In this document: positions 28,985 to 43,136 of the stretch, piece after piece
Position numbering within the stretch: the stretch's first letter is position 1
Layout of the letters: each line of letters starts with the position of its first letter
From: Arthrobacter sp. efr-133-TYG-118
Lineage (GTDB): Bacteria; Actinomycetota; Actinomycetes; Actinomycetales; Micrococcaceae
DNA length: 64,000 bases
Assembly (NCBI RefSeq): GCF_030209755.1
Contig: NZ_JARVRH010000009.1
Coordinates: 124,001 to 188,000, forward strand
Reading direction: 5' to 3'
Translations under genes and position numbers: made by a program
Notes under the pieces: model-generated
Seen by the model: only the letters and a program-made list of their open reading frames with translations
Database searches by the model: none
What the model was told of the DNA's origin: nothing

Positions 28985-29011
28985 TCGACTCCCTATCGAT
29001 TACGTTCATGA

Positions 29012-29032
29012 TATCGAAGTATCTTCACTATA
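29012..29032. promoter_or_regulatory. Operator in the amidohydrolase/deacetylase divergent promoter
   Basis: TATCGAAG (29012-29019) and CTTCACTATA (29023-29032) form a near-palindrome around TAT. The same 10-mer CTTCACTATA occurs at 33629-33638, and TATCGAAG recurs at 31343 and 43154. This is a candidate site for the XRE-cupin regulator. Confidence 0.55.
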
Positions 29033-29052
29033 ACCACAGAGGAGATTCCACA

Positions 29053-29973
29053 GTGTCCGTCCCTTCCACCACCCGGGATTTCGTGGGCTACGGCGAGCAC
29101 CCCCCGGAGTTCCGCTGGCCCGGAGGTGCCCGCGTTGCGGTGTCCCTGGTGATCAATGTCGAAGACGGAGCGGAGCGCAGCATCGCGCGCGGAGGCCCTG
29201 CGGACGATCTTGGAGCGCACTGGATCAGGCACCCCGCCCATCCCACGGCCCGGAATCTCACACTGGAGTCGGCTTTCGAATACGGGTCAAGGGCAGGCAT
29301 CTGGCGGGTGTTGCGGATTCTGAGGCGCCACGACGTGAGGGCAACTGCCTTCTGCTGCGCCACGGCACTCGAACAAAACCCCCGGATCGCGGCTGCGCTG
29401 GTCAGGGATGGCCACGAAATTGCCGACCACGGTTACAACTGGGACACCCACGCCGGGCTCACTCCCGACGAGGAACGCGCGCTGATAACCGCATCCCGCG
29501 ACTCCATCGCCAAGAGCACCGGAGGTCCGCCCACGAGTTGGTACTCCCGCGACGGACTCAACCCGGGTACGCGGGACATCCTCGCCGCCGCTGGATTCAT
29601 GTACGAGTCCAACAGCTTCAACGATGACGTGCCGCATTTTGGAACCGGGATAGACAACGCGGGGAAGGACGGAACAGGGTTGCCAGTCTTGCCCTACGCA
29701 GGCGACACCAACGACTCGGGCCTCTTCACACAGTTCCCCACGGCTACCGCGTTCGCCCGCCAATTGTGCGGCACGCTGGACATGATGCTTACTGACAGCC
29801 GGTCCGGACCGTCCGTCATGAACGTGGGCCTCCACCCGCGCCTCATTGGCCGGCCTGCCTACGCAACCGCCCTGGACGCATTCTTGTCCCACGCGGGCAA
29901 GAATGCGGCGTGGATCGCGACTCGTTCGCAGATCATCGAGGCTTGGCTGCTGAATACGCGGCGACAGCCCTAA
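29053..29973 (+). CDS. PuuE/cyclic-imidase-type polysaccharide deacetylase family protein
   Basis: A GTG at 29053 preceded by GAGGAG gives 306 residues; the ATG at 29008 would lie inside the operator. The protein has the NodB-like fold in its allantoinase/cyclic-imide hydrolase form: RDFVGYGEHPPEFRWPGG, VINVEDGAE in place of the FDDG motif, and HEIADHGYNWDTH. Members of this branch open rings of imides or allantoin and do not act on glycans. The end of the gene overlaps the convergent racemase gene by 4 bases. A paralogue is encoded at 32638-33561. Confidence 0.82.
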   Translation: MSVPSTTRDFVGYGEHPPEFRWPGGARVAVSLVINVEDGAERSIARGGPADDLGAHWIRHPAHPTARNLTLESAFEYGSRAGIWRVLRILRRHDVRATAFCCATALEQNPRIAAALVRDGHEIADHGYNWDTHAGLTPDEERALITASRDSIAKSTGGPPTSWYSRDGLNPGTRDILAAAGFMYESNSFNDDVPHFGTGIDNAGKDGTGLPVLPYAGDTNDSGLFTQFPTATAFARQLCGTLDMMLTDSRSGPSVMNVGLHPRLIGRPAYATALDAFLSHAGKNAAWIATRSQIIEAWLLNTRRQP

Positions 29974-30695
29974 GCGGTAGCGAGCAGCGCGCCCCATCCC
30001 GGGATCGGGCGCGCAGTTCGGGCCAAGCGGAGGAGATGCCACAGCGTGGCTGTTGCGCTGTCGACGACGGGCACGCCGAACTCGGATTCGAATCCGGCCG
30101 CCAGATAGGCCGAGCGAAGGTTCGTCCCAATGCAGACGACGGCGTCGACCCCGGCCCCAAAAGCGGGCTTCATCAGCGCGCCGATATCCGCGCCCGACAT
30201 TCGCGAGATTTCCGGGTTCGACATTGACGTCGCGGGCACCGAAGAGCGCACCACTTCCAGGCCGCTGGCGGCGTACTCACGTTCAATCAGCGACATGATG
30301 CCCCGGGGGCCGGGAAAAACGACGGCGACCCGGCCGGCGTCGAGCGCCTTCAGTGCGGCCACGAGCGCCAGGGATGCGGTGGTGGCCGGCGCGCCCGTGG
30401 CCTCCGTCAAAGATTCGGCGAGCGCCCGGTCGCCTTCGAGGCCGGTCCACGAACCCGACGTTCCGTGGAATGCGATGGCATCCAACTCAGCATCACTGAG
30501 CAGCGACGGCGCGTCGCCGAGAACCTTCGCGTCGATGCGGTCATCGAGGTCCGCCGGAAGCCGGAAGCGGCTGTAGTGCACGCCGACGTCCGGCGATCCG
30601 GCCAGAATGTCAGCCGTCAGCGACTCAGCGTTGGAGTTCGACGACGGCACGAGCATTCCCAAGCGGGAAGACGGTCCGGGCGGGTGGCTCGTCAA
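29970..30695 (-). CDS. Asp/Glu racemase-superfamily protein (maleate isomerase-like), catalytic Cys missing
   Basis: The 241-residue protein resembles the maleate isomerase/arylmalonate decarboxylase branch: RLGMLVPSSNSNAE at the start, AFHGTSGSWTG in the middle and VVCIGTNLRSAYLAAG near residue 190. In active relatives a Cys usually precedes TSG and TNL; here both positions are Gly, although one Cys lies two residues before the second motif. It may have a different chemistry or bind a ligand without catalysis. It overlaps the XRE-cupin regulator gene by 4 bases, so both are co-transcribed. Confidence 0.75.
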   Translation of the reverse strand: MTSHPPGPSSRLGMLVPSSNSNAESLTADILAGSPDVGVHYSRFRLPADLDDRIDAKVLGDAPSLLSDAELDAIAFHGTSGSWTGLEGDRALAESLTEATGAPATTASLALVAALKALDAGRVAVVFPGPRGIMSLIEREYAASGLEVVRSSVPATSMSNPEISRMSGADIGALMKPAFGAGVDAVVCIGTNLRSAYLAAGFESEFGVPVVDSATATLWHLLRLARTARPIPGWGALLATA

Positions 30696-31309
30696 TGGGA
30701 TTTACCCAGCGACGGCGGCGTCGAGATCGCCACCATGACCGCTGCAGTGTCCGTGAGGTTGCTCCACCAATGCGGCAGGGTGGCGTCATAGGTCAGGCTG
30801 TCGCCCTCGCCCAAGGTGAATTCCTGTCCGCCGACACTGGCCACGAGCGTGCCGGTCTGGACCACAACGCACTCCTCGCCCTCGTGCGAATGCGGAACCT
30901 CCGCGCCGTCGAAACGCGCAGGGATCGTCATGTTGATGACGCCAAGCTTCCGGTCCGCATCGGGCACGATCAATTCCATGACGATTCCTTGGGACGGAAT
31001 CTCAATGCGGCGGCGATCGGCCCGGCGCACCAGCATGTGGTTATGCGTCTCGCTGGGGTCGGTAAACATGCTCGCCAGCGGCACACCAAGGGAATTGGCC
31101 AGGCGAAGGAGCGTGGCGAATGACGGATTACCGATGCCGCGCTCGATCTGGCTGATTAGTCCGGCGCTCACACCGGCCCGGTCCGCCAATTCCTCAACAG
31201 TGAACCGCCCGGCACGCTGTTCCTTGAGCATGGCGCCCAAATGGGTGATCCACAGGTTGCGGTGCAGAGTGTCATCGTCGTCGACTTTAACAACTTCCGT
31301 GCTTCCCAA
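30692..31309 (-). CDS. XRE-cupin transcriptional regulator
   Basis: The 205-residue regulator has an N-terminal helix-turn-helix (FTVEELADRAGVSAGLISQIERGIGNPSFATLLRLA, about residues 36-71) and a C-terminal cupin sensor domain (VPHSHEGEECVVVQTG, near residue 140, with the His/Glu cupin motif). This SutR/PuuR-like layout regulates amine, amino acid and amide catabolism genes. It has its own upstream half-sites (31343-31369), which suggests autoregulation, and is the best candidate for the control of the whole 26-47 kb island. Confidence 0.88.
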   Translation of the reverse strand: MGSTEVVKVDDDDTLHRNLWITHLGAMLKEQRAGRFTVEELADRAGVSAGLISQIERGIGNPSFATLLRLANSLGVPLASMFTDPSETHNHMLVRRADRRRIEIPSQGIVMELIVPDADRKLGVINMTIPARFDGAEVPHSHEGEECVVVQTGTLVASVGGQEFTLGEGDSLTYDATLPHWWSNLTDTAAVMVAISTPPSLGKSH

Positions 31310-31463: not shown

Positions 31464-32210
31464 TCACGGGGAGTCACACCTCTTCCAGTGCGTCTCCGGA
31501 GCGGCGGCCGCAGCCAGCTGCGCGATCATCGAGGCGAGTTCCCGTTCCCAGTACACCGCGGCGCGATCGGCGCCCCGGGCGTGGACATCGCCGGCCCTGG
31601 CAATGTCGGCCGCGGGAAGGCCCACGCTTTGGCCGGCAGCTCCGAGGACGTCGACCACGCGCTGTACGGATTCCTCAAGCGCGACTGCTCCTGGCCTCCC
31701 CTGTTTCAGCAGTTCACCGGCAAGGTCCGTGGGGCCCACCCAGCCGCCATCGAAATGCTCCAAAGCCACGAAGTCTTCGACGGCGTCAACGGCTTCCACC
31801 GTCTCAAAGAGGACCGTCAGCCGGGGCTCCAGCGAATAGTCCGCACCAAACGCCGAGGCGAACGAGGCCTGTTTCGGCCTGGACCCCGGAGGACCAAACC
31901 TTGTCGCCCTGTGGGCCCGTTCAAGTTCTTTCGGATGCCGCACCTTGGGGAGCACAATCTCATCCACCCCCGTGTTGGCGAACGCCACCAAGGTCATGTC
32001 ATCAAGGTCAGGGACACGGACGGCGACCCGGGTGTGGGCGCCTGATAGCCGCTGGACCGCATCTGCGCATTGCTGCAGCGTCAACGTTGTCTGCTCTGCG
32101 TCGAGGACCACGAAATCCAGGTTTCGGTAGGCGACCACCGACAACAGCGTGGGGGTCGGCTCGGCCGTGATGAGTCCAACCTGTCGAACGAGCGACGACG
32201 TCGCCATCAC
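31464..32210 (-). CDS. HpcH/HpaI-type aldolase
   Basis: The 248-residue enzyme fits the class II pyruvate aldolase/citrate-lyase-beta family: FVVLDAEQTTL near residue 33 (usually DxEH), RVAVRVPDLDD, the metal ligand Glu in LFETVEAVDAV, and GGWVGPTDLAGEL with the metal-binding Asp. Such enzymes cleave 2-oxo-4-hydroxyacids to pyruvate plus an aldehyde, a common last step in ring catabolism. It is the third gene of an operon with an imidase-type deacetylase and a cupin, overlapping the cupin gene by 4 bases. Confidence 0.8.
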   Translation of the reverse strand: MMATSSLVRQVGLITAEPTPTLLSVVAYRNLDFVVLDAEQTTLTLQQCADAVQRLSGAHTRVAVRVPDLDDMTLVAFANTGVDEIVLPKVRHPKELERAHRATRFGPPGSRPKQASFASAFGADYSLEPRLTVLFETVEAVDAVEDFVALEHFDGGWVGPTDLAGELLKQGRPGAVALEESVQRVVDVLGAAGQSVGLPAADIARAGDVHARGADRAAVYWERELASMIAQLAAAAAPETHWKRCDSP

Positions 32211-32608
32211 TCGTCCGCCACGAACTGCCAGTCGGCGGGCTTGCTGACGCCGACAACCAGATTGACGTCTTCGTCGCCGTCGTTGGTGATGCCATGGGTT
32301 GTGCCCCGTGGGATGTAGATGCCATCGCCTGGCTTGGCCCTGTACTCTGCGTCGCCCAGATGAACGAGGGGCTCGCCCGAAATGACCACGTAGAACTCAG
32401 AGGCATCCGGATGATGATGGCATAGGTGATGTTGTCCGGGGAGAATCCTGCCCCAGCTGACACATAGGTCGTCGGATCCGCTCAGGTCACGCGAGATGAG
32501 CGTGGAGACGAGCCCTTGGTCCCGTTGTCCGCGAAGGCCCGTCTTCTCCAGCGCCGTGAAGCCCTGTTCATTGACGTTATGGACCAACCGCGAAATATCC
32601 GTGGCCAT
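32207..32608 (-). CDS. Single-domain cupin protein
   Basis: The ATG at 32608 follows GGAGGG and gives 133 residues; the longer frame overlaps the upstream gene. It has both cupin motifs: GQHHLCHHHPDASEFYVVISGE (metal His/Glu set) and PGDGIYIPRGTTHGITN. Such proteins act as isomerases, lyases or small-molecule sensors. It sits between the imidase-type deacetylase and the aldolase genes, so a role on an intermediate of the pathway is likely. Confidence 0.82.
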   Translation of the reverse strand: MATDISRLVHNVNEQGFTALEKTGLRGQRDQGLVSTLISRDLSGSDDLCVSWGRILPGQHHLCHHHPDASEFYVVISGEPLVHLGDAEYRAKPGDGIYIPRGTTHGITNDGDEDVNLVVGVSKPADWQFVADE

Positions 32609-32637
32609 TGGCGTCCCTCCTCCAGGCATTGACGTAG

Positions 32638-33561
32638 TCACGCGCGGCCTTCGTACGCCGCTTCGAGGTGGCCGGCCGCAGGCGGATTGGCGATCCACCA
32701 CCGGGCAATTTCCTCCCTTGTAGCGAACCAAACGTCGTTCCGCGCGAGGGCATACTCCAGGAAGCGCCTGACCCCCAAGGCGACGCTGGGCCTCCCGCCG
32801 ATGCGCAAATGAACTCCTACGGACATCATCCTGGGCACCGTTTCCCCTTCGAGCAGAAGGCAGTCGAGGCTGTCCTTCAGTACGTTGAAGAAGTCATCCG
32901 CTGTCCCGAAGCTTCCGGGGCCCCAAAACCTCGCGTCGTTCGTGTCGCCCGAGTACGGGACCACGAGGTGGCGGGATTCTCCGGCGGCCACGAAATACGG
33001 CAGGTCGTCCGCATAGGAATTGGAGTCATAGAGAAAGCCCTCGTCCTTGAGGATCGCGCGGGTGTTCTCGGTGATTCCTTCTCGGACGTACCAACCCACC
33101 GGCCGGACACCCGAGACTGCCTCGATCGCCGCGACGCAGGCCCTGATTTCGGCCAGTTCTTCGGCCGGAGTCATTCCGACAGTTCCGCGCCATTTGTAGC
33201 CATGCGCGCAAACCTCGTGTCCGTCGCGAACGATCGCCTGGGCGGCCTCGGGGTTTCGTTCCAGGGCAACACCGCATGCCATGAATGTCGCGGGCACGTT
33301 GTAGTCCCGGAGCAAAGCCAAAAAGCGCCAGATTCCCACCCTGCTGCCGTACTCGAAGAAAGATTCCTTCATCAAGCTCCGCCGGCCCGGATCCGAAGAC
33401 CAACCACCGAAAATCGTGACGTCTTCGTCACTTTCATCACCGGCTTCTATGGAGCTCTCCGCGCCTTCCTCGTAGTTGATGACCATGGAGATGGCCACCT
33501 TGGCACCATTGGGCCAAGTCACGACCGGGGGGTTTTCCCCGTATCCAATGAGGTCTCGCAT
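32638..33561 (-). CDS. Second PuuE/cyclic-imidase-type deacetylase family protein
   Basis: The 307-residue protein is a paralogue of the product of 29053-29973: MRDLIGYGENPPVVTWPNG, VINYEEGAE, SFFEYGSRVGIWR and HEVCAHGYKWRGT align with it. The VIN-EEG and AHGY segments are the branch's forms of the NodB metal motifs. The expected reaction is hydrolysis of a cyclic amide, imide or allantoin-like ring. It is the first gene of the operon with the cupin and aldolase, behind an operator at 33592-33638. Confidence 0.82.
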   Translation of the reverse strand: MRDLIGYGENPPVVTWPNGAKVAISMVINYEEGAESSIEAGDESDEDVTIFGGWSSDPGRRSLMKESFFEYGSRVGIWRFLALLRDYNVPATFMACGVALERNPEAAQAIVRDGHEVCAHGYKWRGTVGMTPAEELAEIRACVAAIEAVSGVRPVGWYVREGITENTRAILKDEGFLYDSNSYADDLPYFVAAGESRHLVVPYSGDTNDARFWGPGSFGTADDFFNVLKDSLDCLLLEGETVPRMMSVGVHLRIGGRPSVALGVRRFLEYALARNDVWFATREEIARWWIANPPAAGHLEAAYEGRA

Positions 33562-33641: not shown

Positions 33642-34478
33642 TTAGCGGCCTTCCGCGTAGACCTTCCTGTGCGCGGCCAGTGACGTCCTGAGCATTCCGT
33701 CGACGTCGTTGATCACATTGCCGTGGGCGGGGCCGATCAGCGTCGTGGGAAGCATGTCCAGGACCGCTTCAATGCCGTCGAAGGCATCGCTGACGTCCAC
33801 GAACTTCGTCCAGTAGAGAGCCCGACCGGTTCCATACGCCGCTTGGTCCACGGTGGGAGGTTCCGGCATCTCGCCGGACAACAAACGGCATTGGCCAGGG
33901 AGGTGGACCGGTTCGTCGTCGTCCTCTGACGCTGCCCCGCCCGCTGCGGGAACGTCGTGGATGAAGGAGAAGCCGTCCGAAACAAACATCATCCGGGCGC
34001 CGTCGTCGTGGCCCCACAGCGTGTTCTCCAGGTCCCGGATGAAGGCCGGGAGGAAGCGGAACTCCCGGCCGCCTAGATCGATCCGGCTTCCGGCCGCCTG
34101 GGTCCTGAGCCTGGAGCGGTATTCAGGGAAATGCAGATGGTAATCACGGACGTCACCCACCACGAGCGCCCCGGGATACTTGTCCAGCAGGGCAGGCAGG
34201 TTCCCGGCGTGGGGGATCTCGGGATGGGTCGGGAAGACATAATCCAGGGGGCGTTCACCGAGAACCAATTCCAGCTGGGCGAGAAGGAGGGCACGGTGGG
34301 CCGGATCCCCTGTATCTACCAAGAGCGTCGCTTCGGAGCCCACCACCAGATAGGAGGAGACGTGATAGTGGACTTCCTGTCCCTGGGCGCTGGCCGACAG
34401 GCAGCCACCCAGCCAGTAGGTTCCGTCGGCAAGCCACCGGAGTTCGACTGCATCGTGCTTCACTGGATTCTCATTCAC
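33642..34478 (-). CDS. Flavodiiron-like MBL-fold protein, type A (copy 1)
   Basis: The 278-residue protein is a stand-alone metallo-beta-lactamase fold related to the oxygen-binding diiron domain of flavodiiron proteins. The ligand loop is THPEIPHAGN (about residues 79-88): the flavodiiron pattern H-x-E-x-D-H has Pro in place of Asp. The late Asp (FVSDGF) and final His (GPAHGN) are kept; the middle His is replaced within AFIRDLEN. No flavodoxin domain follows. It overlaps its type B partner gene by 4 bases. A paralogue pair is at 37675-39325. The function is unknown. Confidence 0.72.
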   Translation of the reverse strand: MNENPVKHDAVELRWLADGTYWLGGCLSASAQGQEVHYHVSSYLVVGSEATLLVDTGDPAHRALLLAQLELVLGERPLDYVFPTHPEIPHAGNLPALLDKYPGALVVGDVRDYHLHFPEYRSRLRTQAAGSRIDLGGREFRFLPAFIRDLENTLWGHDDGARMMFVSDGFSFIHDVPAAGGAASEDDDEPVHLPGQCRLLSGEMPEPPTVDQAAYGTGRALYWTKFVDVSDAFDGIEAVLDMLPTTLIGPAHGNVINDVDGMLRTSLAAHRKVYAEGR

Positions 34479-35206
34479 TGGATCCCCATTTCCTCGATTG
34501 CGCGCGCCAGCTCCCCTGCCTGCTCAAGGCACATGTCCCTTCCAATAAAGGGAGTTCCGTAGCCGGGGCCGACGGCGCGGACATCGCGGTCCCGGAAGAT
34601 GTCTCCAATGTTCCGCGCGATCGGACTGGTATCTGCCCCTGTGAACCAGCGAAATTTCCGGAGTCCCTCCCGGGTCTCCGGGCCGGCGCTGCCGCCGTGC
34701 GTGAATGCATCCGAGGTCAGCAGCCCGCCCGATTCCGGATCGAAAACCCAGAGCGTCGGCAGGAGCCGGAGGAGCGGTGAAACGAGTTCGACGACGATGC
34801 CGTCCAGCACTTCTACCCGCATCGATGTCCCCGGATCCACGGCAATCCGCTTGGATTCGGCCTTGGAACGAGGCACGGTGATTCCGCCGGTGTACCAGAC
34901 CGAGCCAACCGGGAAGCGCTCCTCGATGGCGGGGATGTTGAGACAGCATTCCATTTCGGTCCGGGTGAGGACAATGGATAGCGGCTCTCCGGGTGACAGC
35001 AGCCGGTCAAGCTGTTCGATGATTCCTTCCTGATGAAGGCGAACCCCGGTGTCCACCACCACTGAACCAGACGGCCCCTTGATCAAGTAACAGTTCACCG
35101 CTTGCGTACGCCGTACGCCGGGCGGGCACCAGCTCACGCGCTCATCCAGTTCGATGTCCCCGCCGAGCCGGTAGATCCGGCCGCTCAGCAAACCGCTCAT
35201 CCTCAC
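34475..35206 (-). CDS. Flavodiiron-like MBL-fold protein, type B (copy 1), metal ligands degenerate
   Basis: The 243-residue protein shares the MBL fold (NCYLIKGPSGSVVVDTG; LLTSDAFTHG) with flavodiiron domains, where SDAF-GxH is the bridging-Asp motif. The first ligand loop reads TRTEMECCLN, so the usual two His are Arg and Cys, while the Glu is retained; the last His becomes Tyr in GPGYGTPF. It is therefore unlikely to bind a normal diiron centre and may be a regulatory or structural partner of type A, whose gene overlaps by 4 bases downstream. Confidence 0.68.
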   Translation of the reverse strand: MRMSGLLSGRIYRLGGDIELDERVSWCPPGVRRTQAVNCYLIKGPSGSVVVDTGVRLHQEGIIEQLDRLLSPGEPLSIVLTRTEMECCLNIPAIEERFPVGSVWYTGGITVPRSKAESKRIAVDPGTSMRVEVLDGIVVELVSPLLRLLPTLWVFDPESGGLLTSDAFTHGGSAGPETREGLRKFRWFTGADTSPIARNIGDIFRDRDVRAVGPGYGTPFIGRDMCLEQAGELARAIEEMGIQ

Positions 35207-35229
35207 TCCTTCCCTTGGATCCGGATGGT

Positions 35230-35904
35230 TCAGGAGTTGCTGGCCGTCTCCCAGACAGCAATAGCTTCATCCAGGGTGCAGACGTCATGCCGGGCCCGCA
35301 TGACGGTCAACGCGGCGTCGTGCACCACCGTGTCATAGGCTCCCACCGCGTCCTCGAGCAGCACGGCATAGAAGTCGTTGTGCACGGCGTCGCGCAGGGT
35401 TGCTTCGACACAGCCACCGGTGGAAACGCCCACGAGGGCCACCGCCTCGATCCCCTGGCTGCGGAGCAGCAAGGCGAGTTCCGTGGCGATGAAGGCGCTG
35501 GGGCGTCGCTTGGTGATCACGACTTCCCCGTCTTCGGGCATGCAGGGTTCGCAGAACTCTGTCGCGGGGTCGCCTTTGGCACTGAGCTTGCCGAGATCAA
35601 TGGGGCGACCGTTCGCTGCTGTATACAGGGCACGCAGCCAGGCCGCCGGCGAGCTGGCGCCGTCAGGAAGGTTCTCGACGCGAATGTGGAAAACCGGCAC
35701 CCCATTGGCACGCGCCGCAGTGATGGCGCGACCGCACTTTTCGACAACGGACGGCATCATGCTCATGTCATGTCCGGAATCTCCTATTGCGCCACCGGAC
35801 GAAACAGCCCCCACCTGCATGTCGATGACAACCAAGGCTGTGGTGGCGGGATCGAGCAGTTCCTGGAGGGTGTGGCGGACAGGTTTGCCGCAGATTTCAA
35901 TCAT
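35230..35904 (-). CDS. Isochorismatase-family cysteine hydrolase
   Basis: The 224-residue enzyme has the triad of amide-cleaving isochorismatase relatives: Asp in ALVVIDMQ (near residue 28), Lys in ITKRRPSAF, and nucleophile Cys in GVSTGGCVEATLRDA, with the cis-peptide before it. Related enzymes hydrolyse N-carbamoylsarcosine, ureidoacrylate, maleamate or nicotinamide, all of which are products of ring opening. It lies 23 bases upstream of the type B MBL gene and downstream of the binding protein gene, in one likely operon. Confidence 0.86.
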   Translation of the reverse strand: MIEICGKPVRHTLQELLDPATTALVVIDMQVGAVSSGGAIGDSGHDMSMMPSVVEKCGRAITAARANGVPVFHIRVENLPDGASSPAAWLRALYTAANGRPIDLGKLSAKGDPATEFCEPCMPEDGEVVITKRRPSAFIATELALLLRSQGIEAVALVGVSTGGCVEATLRDAVHNDFYAVLLEDAVGAYDTVVHDAALTVMRARHDVCTLDEAIAVWETASNS

Positions 35905-36009
35905 GGTTTTCTTCCTTCACGGGGATGCAGGGTCGCAGGGAATCCGGGGTCGGGTGAATTCTGGCCGACGGTCACCCGCCGGCCAGAACTACGTGCTTCA
36001 CAGGGTTTG

Positions 36010-37602
36010 TTATTTGCCTAGACCAGCGAAATAGACCTGGTCGTTGGTGAGCGGCACGGCCCCCGTCAAGGTGTCCTGCTTGACGATCAGGTTCCTGACC
36101 TCCACCAGGGAGAGAATCGGGGCGCCCTGGTCCACCAATCCGGCCATCTTCTTGAGCAAGGCTGCCCTCTGGTCCGTGTTCGCGGTCGGGGTGGCCGCCA
36201 ACTGAGTCCGGGTGGCATCGAATTCAGGATTGGACCATCCGGTGCTGTTGCTCGGAGCTCCGGTGGAGTAGAACGCGTAGGTGTAGAACGCGGGGTCGGC
36301 GATGACAATCGGCTCGGAGTACAGGACCGCTTGGAAGCGGCCGTCGATAAGTGCCGAGGAGAAGTCCGTCGGGCTCGCCACGTTCAACAACTGCACCGTG
36401 ATACCCACCTTCGCCAACATGGATTGGATAAGGACGGCTGAACTCTTCGCGACAGGGCCCGGGCGGCTCACGCTGTAGCTAAGTGTCAGGGGGAACCCGT
36501 TCGCGTACTGGGTCTGCGCCAGCAGCTTCTTGGCCCCGTCGGGGTCGTATTTGTAGGTGGGTGAATCCTTCACGGTGGGAAAGATCGAGCCCGCCGGGTC
36601 CGCGAGGCCGGCATAGGCGCCCTTGGCCAGGGCAGCTCGGTCGATCGCCATGGAAACTGCCTGGCGAACCTTCGCATCTGCCAAAGGACCGGTCTTCGTG
36701 TTGAACATCATGGTGTCGCGGGTCTGGCTGGTGCACTTAAGGACACTGACTCCATTGACACCGGTCATCGAGCTGTATTGGTCATATTCGAAGCCGTTGG
36801 CAATCTGGGCCTCGCCGGTCTTCACCAATTGGGTCCGGGTCGCGGTGTCGGGAACCGCTTTGACCACAACCCGCTTCACCGAGCCTCGATCGCCTCCCCA
36901 GTTCGGGTCCGCGGTCACCGTCAGGGACGTGCCGGGAGTAAACTCCTCGAGCTTCCAACCGCTGTAGTCGGCCAGATTCTTCGAGAGCCACTTGTTGGCC
37001 GTGGGGTCATCCGGCGTGACGTGAAGTTTCGCTTCCTTGCTGTCGTGGATGTAGAAGAGATTGTTCTGCAGTGACTCGAGCGTGTATGACGTCATCCCCA
37101 CGGTGTTGAGTTCAACAGTTCGGTCATCGATCACGGTGACGAGGTTGTCCACGTTGAATCCGCTGCTCTTGAGCGTGCCCTTCATGACGGGCTGCCGCAC
37201 CATGCCGATCGCCAGGCTCCATTTCACGTCGTCGGCCGAGAGGGTGTTTCCAAACTGGCTTGTCAGCTTCCGTAGCTTGACGATGACCCCCTTGCCATCC
37301 GGGGCGGCTACCGCGCTCTCGGCGAGCCGACCGGTGACCGCGGTAGACGGCGTCGAGCATGATTGGTCATCGCTCGCGCCGGTTTTGTACTCCAGCAACT
37401 GGGAACCGAGGCCGCTGAGCACCACATGCGATGCACTGCCGCCCCACGGGGCCGGGGTGAGACTATCCGGGAGGGCGCCGACGGCGATGACGACCGACTC
37501 CGGCTTGGCCACCGCTGCGGTGGGAGTGGCTCCCCCGCATCCGGTAAGCGACACAGCTGCCGCGGCTGCAAACCAGCCGAGCAATAAACGCGAATTCTTC
37601 AT
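36010..37602 (-). CDS. Family 5 solute-binding lipoprotein (Dpp/Opp type)
   Basis: The 530-residue protein has a lipoprotein signal with lipobox LTGC near residue 22 and the family 5 features: VVIAVGALPDSLTPAPWGG, VVVKAVPDTATRTQLVKTGEAQIANGF, VRQAVSMAIDRAALAKGAY. These proteins bind peptides, nickel, or small amide-like solutes. The matching permeases and ATPases are in the adjacent operon 39390-43136. Its place between two MBL gene pairs suggests that it captures the compound degraded by this island. Confidence 0.88.
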   Translation of the reverse strand: MKNSRLLLGWFAAAAAVSLTGCGGATPTAAVAKPESVVIAVGALPDSLTPAPWGGSASHVVLSGLGSQLLEYKTGASDDQSCSTPSTAVTGRLAESAVAAPDGKGVIVKLRKLTSQFGNTLSADDVKWSLAIGMVRQPVMKGTLKSSGFNVDNLVTVIDDRTVELNTVGMTSYTLESLQNNLFYIHDSKEAKLHVTPDDPTANKWLSKNLADYSGWKLEEFTPGTSLTVTADPNWGGDRGSVKRVVVKAVPDTATRTQLVKTGEAQIANGFEYDQYSSMTGVNGVSVLKCTSQTRDTMMFNTKTGPLADAKVRQAVSMAIDRAALAKGAYAGLADPAGSIFPTVKDSPTYKYDPDGAKKLLAQTQYANGFPLTLSYSVSRPGPVAKSSAVLIQSMLAKVGITVQLLNVASPTDFSSALIDGRFQAVLYSEPIVIADPAFYTYAFYSTGAPSNSTGWSNPEFDATRTQLAATPTANTDQRAALLKKMAGLVDQGAPILSLVEVRNLIVKQDTLTGAVPLTNDQVYFAGLGK

Positions 37603-37674
37603 AAGCCTGGTTCCAATTTCTGTACAGAGGGAAAGGACGTGTTACGAGTAGTGCGCTGCTGATGTGGCAGTGGA

Positions 37675-38490
37675 TTAGTAACGGTAGGCGTGCTTGTGGC
37701 CGGCCCGGATGATGGGCGCCACCTCCGGAATATTGGTGATCACGTTGCCGTGGGTGGGCGCTACGATCTTGACCCCAAGGTCATCCATCAGCTTGCCGAC
37801 TCGGTCGTAAACCTGGTCGGCGTCGTTGGCGAATCTGGCCCAGTACAACGCGCTGCCGGTAAAGAAGGCAGCATTCTCGACCGCAATGGGTGCCGAGAGT
37901 TCATCTGTTGTCAGGCCACATTCGCCGGGGAGGTGCACCGGATCCTCATCATCGAGTTCCGGGCGGTGCATGTAGCAAAAGCCGTCGGCCGTGAAAAGCA
38001 CGCCCGACTTCGGTACGAAGCCCCATTGGGTATTTGGCAGGTCCCTGATCATCGCCTCGACGATCACGAATTCATATCCGCCGCCCAGATCCACCTTGTC
38101 TCCGGGAACCCGGGCGTGAAGGTTGGGCACGATCTGGGGGTAAAAAAGGTGGTAGTCCCGAATGTCGCCAACAACCTTGATGTCGGGGTACTTCTCGACG
38201 AGGCGGGGAAGGTTTCCCGTGTGCGGCAGCTCCGGATGCGTCGGGAAGACGTAGCCCAGAGGCTTGTCCCCGAGCAACCCGTCAAGGGTTTCCGAAATGA
38301 TGTTCCAGCTGGAGGGGTTGCCCGTATCAATGAGAATTGACGATTCGGTCCCTTGTGCCAGATAGGTGGAGGTGTGCCCGTGGATAACGCGGTCCTGGAG
38401 GTGGAACGGCAGGCACGAACTCATCCAGGTGACGCCGTCGGCTACCTCACGCGGAAGGTCGCGGCTCATAGTTTCTACTAGTTCTTCCAT
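37675..38490 (-). CDS. Flavodiiron-like MBL-fold protein, type A (copy 2)
   Basis: The ATG at 38490 follows AGGAGA and gives 271 residues. It aligns along its length with the copy at 33642-34478: FPTHPELPHTGNLP, VVGDIRDYHLFYP, AMIRDLPNTQWGF, FTADGFCYMH, VHLPGEC and APTHGNVI. The ligand pattern is the same: His, Glu, Pro, His in the first loop, Asp and final His kept, middle His lost. Residues shared by both copies mark the likely active site. It is the second gene of the operon, 10 bases after its type B partner. Confidence 0.72.
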   Translation of the reverse strand: MEELVETMSRDLPREVADGVTWMSSCLPFHLQDRVIHGHTSTYLAQGTESSILIDTGNPSSWNIISETLDGLLGDKPLGYVFPTHPELPHTGNLPRLVEKYPDIKVVGDIRDYHLFYPQIVPNLHARVPGDKVDLGGGYEFVIVEAMIRDLPNTQWGFVPKSGVLFTADGFCYMHRPELDDEDPVHLPGECGLTTDELSAPIAVENAAFFTGSALYWARFANDADQVYDRVGKLMDDLGVKIVAPTHGNVITNIPEVAPIIRAGHKHAYRY

Positions 38491-38500
38491 CGGGATTCTC

Positions 38501-39325
38501 CTATGCCTTTTCCGGTGCCAACGCGGCGAGCATGAAATCAAGGTGCCGGCGGACGAGCTCACGCCCGCGGATCACGCAGCCGCGGGAAGGGGCGATGGTC
38601 TCGGGAGCGAGAGTCTCGAACTTGTCAGAGAGCCATTCCCGAAGCGGCTCGCACGTGGCCCGCGGGATCCACTCGTATTTCGCGTAGAGGTGCTCCGCGA
38701 CCTGCTTGGCGGTGGTGGTGTCCTCGGCGAGGGAGTCAATGATGCGGGAACCGTCCGGGCTCGTCATGGTGCCGTGGGTGAAGGTATCGGAGGTGAAGAT
38801 GGTTCCGGTATTCGCGTCCCAACCCCAGAAGGTCGGGAGGAGCCGCAGGAGCGGCGACTCGATGGTCAAGTACCTGCCCGGCGCCACCTCGATCTCGGGA
38901 GTGCGGGCCATGGAATCCCCGCCCTCTCCCTTCTGGTCGATCTGCTGCCGACGGCCTCGGAGCGCGAGGCGGCTGAGGTCATCGAATGCATCGAAGGGGT
39001 TGATGGCGCCACCGGTGAAGAGGCGCTCGATGTCGAATTTCCCGGCAATAGGTTCCAGGTTCGAAACGCAGTCCATCTCGCTCCGCGTGAAAAACATGGA
39101 GAGCCGGCCGTCGTCGTCAAGCAGCTCAACCAAGTCATCGAGGATCTCCTGACTGTGGACTGCGAGTCCGGTGTCGACCATCAGCCGGCCGGAGCCCTCA
39201 CTGAGGAGATAGCAATTCGACGGTTGGAAGCCGGTCGCTCCGGCCGGTACCCAGCTCACGCGGCCGTCGAGCGGAATGGTTCCACCGAGGGCGATAACTT
39301 TATCTTCATGAACTTTAGTGAACAT
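38501..39325 (-). CDS. Flavodiiron-like MBL-fold protein, type B (copy 2), metal ligands degenerate
   Basis: The 274-residue protein is a paralogue of 34475-35206 (RVSWVPAG, NCYLLSEGSGRLMVDTG, SPLLRLLPTFWGWD, FTSDTFTHG). The first ligand loop is TRSEMDCVSN: Arg and Cys replace His, Glu and Asp are present. The last His becomes Arg in APSRGCVI. It has an insert of about 30 residues after position 115 that copy 1 lacks. The start codon lies only 2 bases from the operator at 39328-39343, so the mRNA may be nearly leaderless. It heads a likely operon with type A copy 2, the binding protein, isochorismatase and copy 1 of both types. Confidence 0.68.
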   Translation of the reverse strand: MFTKVHEDKVIALGGTIPLDGRVSWVPAGATGFQPSNCYLLSEGSGRLMVDTGLAVHSQEILDDLVELLDDDGRLSMFFTRSEMDCVSNLEPIAGKFDIERLFTGGAINPFDAFDDLSRLALRGRRQQIDQKGEGGDSMARTPEIEVAPGRYLTIESPLLRLLPTFWGWDANTGTIFTSDTFTHGTMTSPDGSRIIDSLAEDTTTAKQVAEHLYAKYEWIPRATCEPLREWLSDKFETLAPETIAPSRGCVIRGRELVRRHLDFMLAALAPEKA

Positions 39326-39389: not shown

Positions 39390-40457
39390 TTAGGAGATGG
39401 CTGCCGGCGTCGCGCCCAGGCGCCGCTGACGGCGTCCGGCTACGGCTACGGCTTTGCTGCGTGTGCGTGGGTCCAGAAGGGTTATCAAGGTGTCGAGAAT
39501 GACATAGCCGAGCAAGCTTGTGGATCCCATGATGAGGACAAAGCCTTGAATGACGGGCACGTCGCCTTTGAGCACGCCGTCGAGAGACCAACCGCCCACT
39601 CCAGGCCAGGAAAAAACACTTTCCACAATGGCCGCTCCGCTGAGGGAGGCGGCAAAAAGAAGTACCAAGTAGGTCATGAGTGACCCGCGAATGTCACTGA
39701 GGGCATACCGGAACACTTGGGCAGGACGCAGGCCGCAGGCCCTCGCAAACTCGATTTGTGGTGATTGGAGCACCTGCAACAGTCCCGAGCGCACTGTCTT
39801 TCCGAACGGGGCAGCGAAGAACAAGCCCATAGTCACGATAGGAAGGACGGCGCGGCCGAGGATTGACGAAAACGTTCCCCACTGGCCGGCAATTATCGCG
39901 TCAAGAGGGATTGACCCCGTGACGTGCGGTGGAGTGATTTGCGCGCTCGAGAGCATGCCGATCGGTGCGGGCGCGATGCGCAGTTGTTGATAGAAGACAA
40001 ACAGCAACAAGAGGGCCAACACGAATTCCGGCATGGCCATAAGGATGGATATCCAGAAGGTGAAGGCCTTGTCCGCAAAGCGTCGGTAGCGGTAGGCCGC
40101 GAACGTTCCGCTCGCCATGCCGATAATGAGGGCCAAGGCGAGCCCTGGCACCAGGTAGATCAAGGTATTGGGGAGCCGGGTCAGGATTTCGCTGGATACC
40201 GAACTGCCGGTGAAGAGCGAATGGCCAAGGTCACCGCTCAGCGTTCTGGACATGTAGCCGAGGTAGCGTTCCCAGAAAGGCAGGTCCAGGCCAAGTTCCG
40301 CGTGGATTCGGGCGATGTCTGCCGGAGTTGCGTATTCACCCAGGAGGGCCACCGCGGGGTCGCCGGGGAGAAGGGAAACCAGGCCAAAACTGAGGGTGAT
40401 GAGGCCACACAGCAGTAAGGCTGCGATCAGGAGTCTTGAAATGATGTAGCGGATCAT
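39390..40457 (-). CDS. Dpp-type ABC permease (DppB-like)
   Basis: The 355-residue membrane protein begins with the DppB signature MIRYIISRLLIAALLLCG and has SLLPGDPAVALLG, six membrane segments and the cytoplasmic loop EFARACGLRPAQVFRYALSD that contacts the ATPases. It is the last gene of the four-gene transporter operon, overlapping the ATPase gene by 4 bases. The operon order permease, ATPase, ATPase, permease differs from the usual permease pair first. Confidence 0.9.
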   Translation of the reverse strand: MIRYIISRLLIAALLLCGLITLSFGLVSLLPGDPAVALLGEYATPADIARIHAELGLDLPFWERYLGYMSRTLSGDLGHSLFTGSSVSSEILTRLPNTLIYLVPGLALALIIGMASGTFAAYRYRRFADKAFTFWISILMAMPEFVLALLLLFVFYQQLRIAPAPIGMLSSAQITPPHVTGSIPLDAIIAGQWGTFSSILGRAVLPIVTMGLFFAAPFGKTVRSGLLQVLQSPQIEFARACGLRPAQVFRYALSDIRGSLMTYLVLLFAASLSGAAIVESVFSWPGVGGWSLDGVLKGDVPVIQGFVLIMGSTSLLGYVILDTLITLLDPRTRSKAVAVAGRRQRRLGATPAAIS

Positions 40458-41272
40458 GAAATCTGCCCCTGGGAATTCGTGGTGCCAACGACGGCGGAAT
40501 AGGGAACCACCGGCAACGCGGCGGAAATGAGCGACTGGGTATAAGGGTGCTGCGGCGCCATCAAGACGTCCCGGGTGGGGCCAACCTCCACGATTTTGCC
40601 GCGATGCATGACAGCCACCGTGGAACAGAAATGCCGCACCGTTTCGATGTCGTGCGAAATGAATACATATGTGAGGCCCCGCGAAGCCCTGAGGCGCGCG
40701 AGGGTGCGCAGGATCGAGGCCCGGATGGTCAGGTCCAGCGAGGACGTTGGTTCGTCCAGGACCACCAGGCCTGGATTCGTGACCAGGGCGCGTGCGATGC
40801 CTACGCGCTGTTGTTGTCCCCCGCTCAGGTTCGCCGGACGCCGGTCCATGAAATCAGCCGAGAGGCCGACTTCCTCCAAGGTCGCCAAGACCCGCAACCG
40901 TCGCTCGGCCCGGCTCCCCATCCGGGCGACGATGAGCGGCTCCTCGACGATCTGCCGGATCGTCAGGCGCGGGTTCAATGACGCGAAGGGTTCCTGGAAG
41001 ACAATCTGCCAATGGCGCCGCTTGCGGCGGAGTTCGCCACGGCCGAGGGCCAACACGTCCTGCCCTTCGATGACGACGGATCCGGAATCCGGCTCGGTCA
41101 GCCTCAGGACCAAGCGGCCGAGCGTTGACTTGCCGGAACCACTTTCGCCGATGATGCCGAGCGTCTCGCCGGCTTCCACGGACAGGGTAATTCCATCTAC
41201 GGCGCGCGCTTCTCCATGGGGGGTTCGGAAGATCTTCGTGACATCCACGAGTTCAAGTAGCGGCATTCTCAA
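40454..41272 (-). CDS. Dpp-type ABC ATPase (DppF-like)
   Basis: The 272-residue ATPase has Walker A GESGSGKST near residue 39, Q-loop VFQEPFASLNP, signature LSGGQQQR, Walker B LVVLDEPTSSLD and switch His in FISHDIETV. The C-terminal APQHPYTQSLISA is the oligopeptide-importer tail; the Fe-S Cys cluster seen in some members is absent. It pairs with the product of 41269-42159. Confidence 0.9.
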   Translation of the reverse strand: MRMPLLELVDVTKIFRTPHGEARAVDGITLSVEAGETLGIIGESGSGKSTLGRLVLRLTEPDSGSVVIEGQDVLALGRGELRRKRRHWQIVFQEPFASLNPRLTIRQIVEEPLIVARMGSRAERRLRVLATLEEVGLSADFMDRRPANLSGGQQQRVGIARALVTNPGLVVLDEPTSSLDLTIRASILRTLARLRASRGLTYVFISHDIETVRHFCSTVAVMHRGKIVEVGPTRDVLMAPQHPYTQSLISAALPVVPYSAVVGTTNSQGQIS

Positions 41273-42159
41273 GACCTCCGGGCTTCGGACAATTGGACCT
41301 TAGAGGGGTCCGGCGTTTCCGGCTCCGTCGTATTCGGTGCCTCAGCGCTCCCTGGCACGTAGGGCGTCTCGTCTTCGGGACGCACCACCGAGTTGAGCAG
41401 GGAGATCGTGTAGGGATGCTGTGGACGGACGAAAACGTCGTCGACGAGTCCTTGTTCCACGATATTTCCGTGGTACATGACCAGCACGCGGTTGCAGTAT
41501 GCGGCCACCACCCCGAGGTCATGGGTCACAATCAGCATCGAGCGGCCACTCTCTACCGTCAGGCGGCGAAGAGTATCGAGGACCTGGCGCTGGACGGTGA
41601 GGTCGAGCGCCGTCGTCGGCTCGTCGGCGATCACCAGCTGCGGGTTGAGGTAAAGCGCCATGGCGATGACGACGCGCTGGGCCATGCCGCCGCTGAGTTC
41701 GTGCGCATAACCGCGCATGACGCGTTCCGGATCGCGGACTCCAGTCGATTCCAACAGCTGCAGTGCACGGCTGCGCTCGGAGGCATCAACCTTCACTCCA
41801 TGCGCCTTGGCGATATTGGCAAACTGCTTCTCGATGCGGGTCACCGGATTCAGGGCGCTGAATGGATTCTGGGCAATGAATCCGATGTCCTTTCCCCTGA
41901 TTTGGCGCATCTCCCGTTCGGGCAGTTCCAAGAGGCTTCGGCCAGCGAAGGTCACGTTGCCGGCGGACACCTTGCCCGGCGGCATCAACAACTTCGTGAT
42001 GGAACGGACCACCGTCGATTTGCCCGATCCGGATTCGCCGACGATCCCGACGATCTCGTTGTCCTGCACCTCGAAGGAAACGCCGTGCAATGCCCGGACC
42101 ACACCCCGGGGGGTGTGGAACTCGGTTTCGAGTTCCCGGACTTGGAGGGTCTTGTTCAT
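41269..42159 (-). CDS. Dpp-type ABC ATPase (DppD-like)
   Basis: The 296-residue ATPase has Walker A GESGSGKST near residue 41, Q-loop IAQNPFSALNP, signature LSGGMAQR, Walker B LVIADEPTTALD and the switch His in VTHDLGVVA. The C-terminal RPQHPYTISLLNS is typical of this family. It overlaps both flanking genes by 4 bases. Confidence 0.9.
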   Translation of the reverse strand: MNKTLQVRELETEFHTPRGVVRALHGVSFEVQDNEIVGIVGESGSGKSTVVRSITKLLMPPGKVSAGNVTFAGRSLLELPEREMRQIRGKDIGFIAQNPFSALNPVTRIEKQFANIAKAHGVKVDASERSRALQLLESTGVRDPERVMRGYAHELSGGMAQRVVIAMALYLNPQLVIADEPTTALDLTVQRQVLDTLRRLTVESGRSMLIVTHDLGVVAAYCNRVLVMYHGNIVEQGLVDDVFVRPQHPYTISLLNSVVRPEDETPYVPGSAEAPNTTEPETPDPSKVQLSEARRS

Positions 42160-43136
42160 CGGGTGTGCTCCACTCGTTCCATCGTGTTCTCAATCGCACC
42201 GGCAATGATGTTGAGCGAGCCAATGACCAGGAGGAGGGCCAGCGCGGGAAAGGCCACGGCCCACCACTGGCCACGGATCAGCATGCTGACGCCGTCTTCG
42301 ATCATCGCGCCCCAGCTTGGCTGGGGCGGTTTGACCCCGACGCCGAGGAAGTTCAAGGCAGCAATCGTGCTCAAGGCGCCGGCAGTGGTCAGCGTGGCCT
42401 GCACCAGGATCACACCGTAGGCGTTCCTGAAGATGTGGTTGAAGGCCACACGGATCGGCGAACATCCGATGGCCACTGCCGCCTCGACGTACCTTGACGA
42501 GCGGAGCGAAATCGCCGCTGCACGGGACAAGCGAACAAAGCGTGGAGCCGCAACCAGGGCGATGGCGAGGATGACATCGGTGGCTCCGCCGCCCATGAGC
42601 TGGATGGACACCACAGCAATCACGATGATGGGGAGCGCGGCGAAAGCGTCAACTATCCGCATGATCGCTTCCCCGGCCAAGCCGGTAGTGGCGAACAGGC
42701 CCAAGGGAACGCCGATGACAAGGGCAATGGCCGTCGCCGCCAGCGAAATGGGAAGGTCTAGCCTCGCCGATTCAATCGTCCGGGAGAACACATCCATTCC
42801 GTTGCCGTCCGTGCCGAACCAATGAACGGAGTTGGGGGCCAGGGCCATGGATTCCACGTCCGGCTGCAGGGGGTTTTGGGGAAGGTGGAGAAAGATCGCC
42901 GCAAGCGGGAGTCCCACAATGATGCCGGCGGCGAGGACGGCGAGGACCGTCCCTGATCGCTTGTACACCCAAGCCCTGCCTTGCTTGGCCCAGCTCGACG
43001 CACGTCCGCCCAGGGACCTCACTGGAGTCCGGGACTCGACTGTCGTAGTTTCACTCAATTGGCACTCGATCCGGTTGACGGGTGTAGGTGAAAGTCTTTT
43101 TTTGACTGGCGCATCCGGGCTCCAGCCACTCGACAT
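42156..43136 (-). CDS. Dpp-type ABC permease (DppC-like)
   Basis: The 326-residue frame has a long polar N-terminus, then a DppC core: LAAGIIVGLPLAAIFLHLP, PNSVHWFGTDGNGMDVFSR, five further membrane segments and the EAA loop EAAVAIGCSPIRVAFNHIF. The start is uncertain: the ATG at 43136 lacks a spaced ribosome-binding site, and an in-frame TTG near codon 27 is possible. It is the first gene of the importer operon; TATCGAAG lies 18 bases upstream of its start. Confidence 0.86.
   Translation of the reverse strand: MSSGWSPDAPVKKRLSPTPVNRIECQLSETTTVESRTPVRSLGGRASSWAKQGRAWVYKRSGTVLAVLAAGIIVGLPLAAIFLHLPQNPLQPDVESMALAPNSVHWFGTDGNGMDVFSRTIESARLDLPISLAATAIALVIGVPLGLFATTGLAGEAIMRIVDAFAALPIIVIAVVSIQLMGGGATDVILAIALVAAPRFVRLSRAAAISLRSSRYVEAAVAIGCSPIRVAFNHIFRNAYGVILVQATLTTAGALSTIAALNFLGVGVKPPQPSWGAMIEDGVSMLIRGQWWAVAFPALALLLVIGSLNIIAGAIENTMERVEHTR

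Follow-up and report, generated by a model that had tools for sequence, protein, structure and literature searches.

Paired flavodiiron-like proteins, one ligand-bearing and one ligand-poor, as putative subunits of one metalloenzyme in bacterial catabolic gene clusters

From our sequence, structure and gene-neighbourhood comparisons, we conclude, with a probability of roughly 0.6, that each of two neighbouring A-B gene pairs in the soil bacterium Arthrobacter sp. efr-133-TYG-118 encodes a single two-subunit metalloenzyme of a catabolic cluster, type A carrying the metal site and type B being ligand-poor. Both pairs lie in the window, the 64,000-nucleotide stretch of DNA that was analysed. Each pair would be built from two diverged copies of the metallo-beta-lactamase (MBL) domain seen in flavodiiron proteins (FDPs) and in the diiron O2 sensor ODP, without a flavodoxin domain. 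A and B very probably form a physical complex, A is likely to be the catalytic and B the non-catalytic subunit, and iron is a somewhat better than even choice for the metal. No description of such a pair was found in open PMC papers.

The preliminary description of this DNA placed the four open reading frames correctly but omitted their strand. All four lie on the minus strand (Table 1), where their translations are intact, whereas reading the same stretches on the plus strand gives antisense products, three of the four with stops. The first ligand loops read THPEIPHAGN (A1), THPELPHTGN (A2), TRTEMECC (B1) and TRSEMDCV (B2), in agreement with the motifs given earlier, and the paralogy of the pairs is evident from identities of 42% between A1 and A2 (E = 4e-78) and 32% between B1 and B2 (E = 2e-34). 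The spacing also holds: B1 shares 4 bases (34475-34478) with A1, the A1 start codon lying on the B1 stop codon, and B2 and A2 are separated by 10 bases when the ATG at 38490 is taken as the A2 start. A longer A2 reading frame with a GTG start at 38562 is also present. As previously described, a binding protein and an isochorismatase-type gene lie between the pairs, assigned by Pfam scan to the family-5 and isochorismatase domains, respectively. The PuuE-like, isochorismatase and racemase-type genes of the window all score below NCBIfam cut-offs. The A and B proteins are 243-278 amino acids long, and in the annotated plasmid records examined the genes are labelled 'MBL fold metallo-hydrolase' and type B 'hypothetical protein'. 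Purifying selection is indicated for all four genes by dN/dS of 0.02-0.21. That B is a decaying pseudogene is ruled out by its open frames and by dN/dS of 0.04-0.21 in eight comparisons, the ratios being rough in those where dS exceeds 1.

Table 1. Genes of the two A-B pairs and their surroundings, with positions in the window
Gene product	Position	Strand	Basis
Second PuuE-like hydrolase	29008..29973	+	TIGR03212 228.6 bits (below cut-off); PF01522
Asp/Glu racemase superfamily protein (EutA / arylmalonate decarboxylase type)	29970..30695	-	below NCBIfam cut-off
HTH-cupin regulator	30692..31309	-	PF01381 + PF07883
HpcH/HpaI aldolase-family protein	31464..32210	-	PF03328
Cupin-domain protein	32207..32731	-	PF07883
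PuuE-like polysaccharide-deacetylase-family hydrolase (allantoinase/cyclic-imidase type)	32638..33561	-	TIGR03212 310.8 bits against cut-off 424.6; PF01522
A1: MBL-fold protein, altered ligand set same as A2	33642..34478	-	sequence comparison
B1: MBL-fold partner, probably degenerate metal site	34475..35206	-	sequence comparison
Isochorismatase-family hydrolase	35230..35904	-	PF00857 E 5.1e-36; top NCBIfam: biuret amidohydrolase, RutB, both below cut-off
Substrate-binding protein, SBP_bac_5 (peptide/nickel/opine-type ABC transporter)	36010..37602	-	PF00496 E 1.2e-55; all NCBIfam matches below cut-off
A2: MBL-fold protein, FDP-like ligands	37675..38490	-	sequence alignment, predicted fold
B2: MBL-fold partner, probably degenerate metal site	38501..39325	-	sequence alignment, predicted fold
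ABC transporter permease adjoining B2	39390..40457	-	PF00528
Two ABC-transporter ATPases	40454-41272, 41269-42159	-	open reading frames, named by eye from sequence; kept in most window-type loci
Second ABC transporter permease	42156..43136	-	PF00528

The proposed likeness to the diiron domain of FDPs was borne out for A2 by sequence and fold, and for B2 by fold. AF2 models of both proteins (pLDDT 86.7 for A2 and 90.0 for B2) show an FDP-type MBL fold on structure comparison. The top PDB match of A2 is FprA (2ohh; Z 25.1, rmsd 2.8, 235 aligned), with Z of 22.0-25.1 for FDPs, 20.4-23.7 for ODPs and 20.5 for the best other MBL protein, ODP 6qnm (Z 20.4) being level with the zinc MBL 1a7t (Z 20.5). 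B2 matches 1e5d best (Z 25.6, rmsd 2.9, 244 aligned), with Z of 20.2-25.6 for FDP/ODP against 18.4 for the best other MBL protein. A1 (45.5 bits) and A2 (36.9 bits) pass the cut-off of 22.7 for PF00753 (Metallo-beta-lactamase), and B1 (20.3) and B2 (14.9) fall short, B2 being assigned by fold. For PF19583 (ODP), A1 and A2 reach 17.0 and 16.1 bits, below the gathering cut-off of 27.2, and the Pfam scan lists no match for B1 or B2. The reported absence of a flavodoxin domain from all four proteins was confirmed, as Pfam gives MBL/ODP matches only and the NCBIfam flavorubredoxin models cover no more than the MBL part of A1 and A2, scoring far below cut-off. Membership of the FDPs is ruled out, since the flavodoxin domain is absent and the H-x-E-x-D-H ... 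H ... D ... H set is not kept, and membership of the ODP family is ruled out by the sub-threshold PF19583 scores. Nor are these proteins normal zinc hydrolases, because FDPs lead the fold matches, no MBL hydrolase ranking above them, and the ligands do not follow the HxHxDH pattern.

At the ligand positions, A2 has H85, E87, P89, H90, D150, D169 and H247. All of these except the Pro are invariant in 65 of 65 type-A sequences, and Pro replaces the FDP loop Asp in 62 of the 65, many of which are near-copies. The count takes type-A proteins at 200 bits or more and type-B proteins at 150 bits or more. It leaves out the repeat loci L044-L046 as well as L022 and L030, where reading frames are broken in B1 or in many genes, and five divergent pairs (ten sequences) were tallied apart. 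The type-A set previously reported, with His, Glu, His, Asp and His kept and Pro for the loop Asp, thus stands, except that the middle His described as lost is a conserved Asp (D150, 65/65) where all eight FDPs in the sequence alignment have His. The replaced loop residue had also been called the bridging Asp, which in FDPs we take to be the later one, D169 here. The site residues of B2 are R81, E83, D85, C86, D180 and R248, the latter in place of the last His. Of the changes claimed for type B, Arg for the first His is universal (65/65), but the Cys and the loss of the last His vary between relatives. As judged from these residues, the metal site of B is probably degenerate or lost, and the active site would lie in A and be rich in carboxylates, with H85, E87, D150 and D169 predicted to form metal site 1 and H90, H247 and D169 site 2. 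The change from loop Asp to Pro should leave two His, one Asp and a vacant position at site 2, and B, with Arg for its first His, may serve structure, regulation or substrate binding. For iron-binding FDPs, PMC7785958 reports acidic ligand sets and a Glu in motif 2.

Every clear type-B gene sampled adjoins a type-A gene, with one gene between them in two cases. A search of 396 genomes gave matches in 41, and five places in three genomes were clear (E 3e-51 or better), each with an adjoining A gene; the remaining matches (E 2e-19 or worse) were read as adjacent A genes or FDP-like proteins. B likewise adjoined A in 14/14 cases of a further sample (one with a gene between), in 19/19 loci of another (a cyclase gene lying between in L129) and in six of six plasmid records; among the other plasmid matches, H9-H13 are haloarchaeal and fall outside this set, and H15-H16 look FDP-like. 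Loci retrieved with an A query had an adjoining B gene in 21 of 21 cases (L015-L035), L035 with a dehydrogenase-like gene, named by eye, between the two. Among 249 genomes of one order, A was found in 15 and B in 16, and the sixteenth carries a divergent adjacent pair with an A score presumably just under the limit. In the tree, types 1 and 2 form lineages of their own, which occur together in all 15 window-type loci holding both places (L015-L028, L030) and on two contigs of an Amycolatopsis genome. That the two pairs serve two substrates or steps, as suggested before, is plausible.

In a tree of 39 A-B pairs picked from lineages, the 39 A and 39 B sequences each fall on one side of a branch with support of 100/99. 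The A tree parallels the B tree (Mantel r 0.796 over 39 pairs; 0 of 5000 permutations as high). Of 5000 shuffles that re-paired A and B inside their genomes, only one matched as well, matched evolution holding even among paralogous pairs within one genome. In the genomes sampled, a ligand-bearing and a ligand-poor MBL paralogue co-occur and co-evolve. Chance adjacency is ruled out by the repeated adjacency, the co-occurrence and the mirrored trees, and the same three observations are strong genomic evidence for the A-B partnership and heterodimer of the preliminary description. Neither of the two outcomes named there as refuting, a confident match to a normal zinc-hydrolase family and A and B homologues that never co-occur, was observed. 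Both members of five divergent pairs, haloarchaea included, keep the ligands (10/10 sequences), so that B probably lost its site later; the branch that places these pairs, as possible orthologues, relative to A and B has support of 28/42.

Most neighbours of A-B genes have catabolic roles, with amide- or ring-opening hydrolases among them. Transporters and catabolic enzymes recur, and among the genes listed the neighbours vary widely between loci. Of 39 loci, 17 gave a hit to a seed of the PuuE-like, isochorismatase, formamidase, cyclase or Amidohydro_2 kind, against none of 20 control stretches (p 1.8e-4); without the seed loci the figures are 7/28 against 0/20 (p 0.016). The p-values here and below are soft, as the classes were chosen after viewing the loci and the loci share ancestry. 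The controls were set at round, non-random coordinates in A-B-carrying genomes, with none for plasmid loci. Amidohydro_2 takes in decarboxylases and hydratases. 'Oxidative' neighbours are not enriched without seed loci (7/28 against 2/20, p 0.18); a Rieske ferredoxin gene lies near five of the 39 loci, and the combined Rieske and Amidohydro_2 set (5/39 against 0/20) is not significant (p about 0.12, hand count). No reductase or electron donor conserved beside the pairs was found in the 39 loci, and no chemotaxis genes were seen beside them. In small-genome alphaproteobacteria (L117, L118, L120-L122, L131, L132) the pair is its own unit, the preceding gene facing it and the following gene pointing away. 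In the window, A-B lies near hydrolase genes (PuuE-like and isochorismatase-like), an aldolase-family gene and the genes of a peptide/opine-type importer, and may act on small, perhaps nitrogen-containing compounds. A substrate named by analogy (a maleamate/nicotinate-like lower route, or a cyclic imide) is no more than a lead: PMC9304392 reports the cyclic imidase HxnM as a relative of PuuE-type proteins, but the window's genes of these kinds score below NCBIfam cut-offs and the neighbours vary between loci.

Regarding the chemistry, we tentatively prefer, at somewhat under even odds, self-sufficient O2 activation by non-haem iron on a small, perhaps nitrogen-containing substrate to hydrolysis. 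The margin is narrow and hydrolysis almost as probable, A-B then being a heterodimeric metal-dependent hydrolase (of a lactone, cyclic imide or cyclic amide, for example) with Zn-, Mn- or Fe-activated water and no O2 chemistry. The majority of characterised MBL proteins are hydrolases, and the hydrolase-type neighbours, the stand-alone units of the alphaproteobacteria and the lack of a conserved electron donor beside the pairs agree with such a role. It is harder to reconcile with the FDP-like, more acidic ligand set of A and with closest folds that are O2/NO-handling diiron proteins, and without Amidohydro_2 loci the neighbour signal shrinks to three of the 28 non-seed loci (L077, L090, L124). 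Hydrolase neighbours are equally compatible with a hydrolase and an oxygenase. More speculatively, and with less than even confidence, A-B may be heterodimeric non-haem iron oxygenases of a class yet to be characterised, made of FDP-type MBL domains that lack the flavodoxin, with a Pro/Asp-remodelled A and a ligand-poor B, by which aerobic bacteria and haloarchaea oxidise small nitrogen-containing or ring compounds with no external electron donor.

Adjacency alone would also be compatible with A and B being separate enzymes that catalyse consecutive steps and have no more in common than an operon, and the genes intervening in L035 and L129 fit that arrangement. It is improbable given the loss of the first metal ligand from every type-B sequence counted and the matched evolution of A and B. 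A non-catalytic pair that, like ODP or PqsE, acts as a sensor (of O2, iron or a metabolite) and controls its cluster has ODP and PqsE among the structural matches and the lost ligands of B in its favour. We regard it as very improbable, since type A keeps its ligand residues throughout, transporters and catabolic enzymes recur as neighbours, and no receptor, kinase or regulator family common to most loci was seen in the neighbour clusters of 26 loci or in the annotations.

Among the solved structures listed, FDPs (FprA, ROO, flavorubredoxin) have the closest MBL fold, and A keeps their His-x-Glu, following His, later Asp and last His. They differ in having a flavodoxin domain, a loop Asp and middle His where A has Pro and Asp, and a first His where B has Arg, and A-B genes are paired in catabolic clusters. 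ODP likewise consists of one FDP-like MBL domain, about as long as A and B, with the weak A1 and A2 matches noted above, and is set apart by the Pfam cut-off, other ligand changes and the chemotaxis genes not seen beside A-B. In CmlA-type MBL diiron hydroxylases an acidic residue replaces the motif-3 His; the residue of A at motif 3 is Asp. Cyanobacteria also combine ligand-canonical (Flv3, Flv4) and non-canonical (Flv1, Flv2) FDP paralogues; according to excerpts of PMC4390876, Flv1/Flv3 and Flv2/Flv4 heterodimers are proposed and Flv2/Flv4 was shown by BN-PAGE, but these proteins have flavodoxin and flavin-reductase domains, a photosynthetic role and an unrelated gene setting. The INTS11/INTS9 and CPSF73/CPSF100 MBL heterodimers join an active to a ligand-less subunit, INTS9 being termed a pseudoenzyme in PMC7980224; both resemble the proposed A-B arrangement as parallels only and are eukaryotic zinc nucleases with beta-CASP domains. 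ETHE1 persulfide dioxygenase, as described in passages of PMC4383860, has an MBL fold and carries out O2-dependent oxidation with mononuclear iron on two His and one Asp. These ligands form its site 1 (His79, His135, Asp154), whereas in A a 2-His-1-Asp set is predicted only at site 2 and the predicted site 1 is richer in carboxylates. DnfA was dropped as a guide to A-B chemistry, being an AurF-type diiron protein.

If A-B is a two-subunit enzyme, the 'hypothetical' half of these pairs in Actinobacteria and Alphaproteobacteria would be explained. The pairs would then form a natural record of the origin of a pseudoenzyme subunit, ranging from those with both sites intact, some of them haloarchaeal, to those in which one site is dead, and the remodelled site of A would tell which FDP ligands may change as an O2/NO-reductase fold turns metabolic. 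The small, conserved clusters mean that the substrate should be findable through ordinary genetics.

Two paralogous gene pairs in the window encode proteins of the metallo-beta-lactamase (MBL) fold, each comprising a single-domain type A protein (A1, A2) with ligand residues like those of flavodiiron proteins (FDPs) and a type B partner (B1, B2) with a degenerate metal site. A1 and A2 are 42% identical and B1 and B2 32%; in both pairs B precedes A in the direction of transcription. Comparison with four relatives indicates purifying selection on all four genes (dN/dS 0.02-0.21), and no further A-B pair was found elsewhere in the 5.28-Mb genome. Genes nearby encode an ABC transporter, two PuuE-like deacetylase-family hydrolases, a cupin, an HpcH/HpaI aldolase-family protein, an Asp/Glu-racemase-type protein, an amidase, two amidohydrolases and an acetamidase/formamidase. 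An sCache-domain sensor kinase and an amidase gene (24312-25967 and 26021-27412, both minus strand) adjoin the cluster, of which they may form part. Diverging from the transporter genes are those for a class IV aminotransferase, an acetamidase/formamidase-family protein and an amidohydrolase (43319-46687, plus strand); formamidase-family genes recur in loci L118 and L122 of other genomes. In Arthrobacter sp. Hiyo8 (L030), many cluster genes, mostly 94-99% identical to those of the window, have frame breaks, which are probably sequencing errors.

The A-B pairs and intervening genes, in order of transcription
Feature	Position	Strand	Description
B2	39325-38501	minus	type B, first of pair 2
A2	38490-37675	minus	type A, after B2
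Binding protein	37602-36010	minus	after A2
Isochorismatase-family gene	35904-35230	minus	after binding protein
B1	35206-34475	minus	type B, first of pair 1
A1	34478-33642	minus	type A, after B1

The resemblance to FDPs proposed in the preliminary description was borne out by structure prediction. The AF2 models of A2 (mean pLDDT 86.7, alignment of 29 rows) and B2 (90.0, 26 rows) are confident, and FDPs are the best PDB matches of both: FprA 2ohh for A2 (Z 25.1, rmsd 2.8, 235 aligned, residues 12-271) and ROO 1e5d for B2 (Z 25.6, rmsd 2.9, 244 aligned, residues 1-272). For A2, FDPs score Z 22.0-25.1 and diiron O2 sensors (ODP, PF19583) 20.4-23.7, the lowest ODP tying with the best other MBL (20.5); for B2, FDPs and ODPs reach down to 20.2, and the best other MBL scores 18.4. 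Sequence searches matched A2 to FDPs (2ohh, E 2.7e-8) and B2 to ODP alone (E 0.99). By predicted fold, the A-B proteins are FDP/ODP-like.

Nine residues are invariant in 65 type A sequences (H85, E87, H90, D150, D169, H175, H186, E197 and H247, numbered as in A2), and P89 is present in 62. In all eight FDPs used for comparison, positions 89 and 150 are Asp and His, respectively. The middle His described earlier as lost is indeed absent from type A, but its position is occupied by a conserved Asp, since D150 is invariant. Mapped onto the FDP ligand positions, H85, E87, D150 and D169 would form site 1, and H90, H247 and D169 site 2. In type B (B2 numbering), the first His is replaced by Arg (R81) in 65/65 sequences, E83 is kept in 63 and D180 in all 65, while variation occurs at the last His and at the residue following the loop. 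Two actinobacterial FDP-like ORFs of about 270 and 360 aa (L047:1183-1983 and L052:1219-2307) retain the loop Asp and carry a further Asp in place of the middle His (HDDEDHTGN ... YDSPTT in L052), forming a second altered-ligand group.

Five divergent pairs (Natrinema L078, Halocatena L079, Paracoccus L080, L134 and L135) have two intact sites, all ten members keeping His, Glu/Asp, Pro, His, Asp, Asp and His. Every type A (W156) and type B (W167) sequence, 65 of each, and all ten divergent-pair members share a Trp that none of the eight FDPs has, so A, B and the divergent pairs look like one branch. Types A and B (39 rows each) are separated by a branch with support of 100/99; deep branches are poorly resolved (support 28/42 for the ten divergent-pair members). 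Whichever way these fall, the simplest view is that the Arg of B is derived, because the first His is present in FDPs, A and the divergent pairs. Duplication with two metal sites, followed by loss of one, would be the likely course. Upstream of the Halocatena pair lies a third annotated MBL gene (L079:3695-4597), beside a long FAD-binding oxidoreductase gene.

The proposed A-B partnership held in the search across genomes: every clear type B sampled had a type A nearby, namely 5/5 places among 396 phylum genomes, 14/14 in six additional genomes (in one case separated by a dehydrogenase-like gene), 19/19 further loci (L129 with an intervening cyclase gene) and 6/6 plasmid records. Conversely, B adjoined A in all 21 loci retrieved with A as query (L015-L035). 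Among 249 genomes of one alphaproteobacterial order, scoring the best 10 first-look candidates per genome, A was detected in 15 and B in 16, namely these 15 and G1467, where the pair is divergent and adjacent and we infer that A scores just under the limit used. Of the other hits of the A query, which also include L043, the seven loci L036-L042 come from anaerobes or Bacteroidales and by score are FDPs (74-91 bits against the A model). Few genomes carry the pair: at E 1e-25 it occurs in 4/385 genomes of the class and 1/398 of the phylum of genome G450, and in 2/249 of the order of G454, with G450 or G454 itself included each time. The closest named relatives are Arthrobacter (A2 identity 98-100%), with clear A2 copies in 4 of the 37 genus genomes sampled, including that of the window, and one weak match (E 6e-4). 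We take the named carriers to be aerobes.

Across 39 A-B pairs, the pairwise distances of A and of B correlate (r = 0.796), a value equalled in 0/5000 permutations. Re-pairing within ten multi-pair genomes or loci, which removes species history, equalled it in 1/5000, although five of the ten inherited the type-1/type-2 split from a common ancestor. We consider that A and B very probably (roughly 0.85) form a physical complex, of which A is quite likely the catalytic half. Flv3/Flv1 and Flv4/Flv2 (PMC4390876) and INTS11/INTS9 (PMC7980224) are precedents for pairing a good site with a bad one.

Neighbourhoods of A-B loci vary and are mostly catabolic. Against 20 control stretches, all from A-B-carrying genomes (one the window's, 16 from genomes among the 39 loci), counts were higher for tripartite-tricarboxylate or family-5 binding proteins (16/39 vs 1/20, p 0.003; 11/28, p 0.007, with seed loci removed), amide/ring hydrolase families (17/39 vs 0/20, p 1.8e-4; 7/28, p 0.016, or 3/28 without Amidohydro_2) and flavin, Rieske, molybdenum or 2-oxoglutarate oxidative genes (14/39 vs 2/20, p 0.03; 7/28, p 0.18). 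These differences are leads, because the loci share ancestry, the seeds were taken from A-B loci that had already been viewed, and Amidohydro_2 includes proteins other than C-N hydrolases. A and B lie side by side in nine small, AT-rich genomes (0.9-1.5 Mb; L117-L122, L131-L133), in six adjoining a common long run of catabolic genes, among them those for a HisD-like dehydrogenase, cyclase, SDR, PuuE-like hydrolase, CaiB-type CoA transferase, 2OG-Fe oxygenase and formamidase; the run is visible as far as the contig reaches in L132, L133 is truncated where its contig stops, and in L119 HisD alone is present, 4 kb from the pair. Rieske ferredoxin and Amidohydro_2 genes occur together near A-B in five distant loci (L032, L078, L082, L083, L129). 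In L087 (33-13359), the pair is in a purine/ureide neighbourhood, between genes for urate oxidase, a luciferase-like monooxygenase, a polysaccharide-deacetylase-family protein and a fused OHCU decarboxylase-HIUase.

As no electron-donor gene is conserved beside A-B pairs, the main readings are a self-sufficient oxygenase and a hydrolase. That the pair would act as an oxygenase is a possibility to which we give nearly even odds; the MBL fold can carry such chemistry, ETHE1 being an iron dioxygenase (PMC4383860). Hydrolysis is only slightly less likely. Iron seems somewhat likelier than zinc as the metal of A, by analogy with iron-binding FDPs, whose ligand set is reportedly more acidic, with Glu in motif 2 (PMC7785958).

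Membership of the FDPs was rejected, as flavodoxin and ligand tests both failed, and of the ODPs, the scores being below the family cut-off. No NCBIfam model matched above its own cut-off, and no description of the pair was found in open PMC papers. We rate the A-B proteins as a flavodoxin-free, cognate, paired branch of FDP-like MBLs with a remodelled site, rare and widely scattered.
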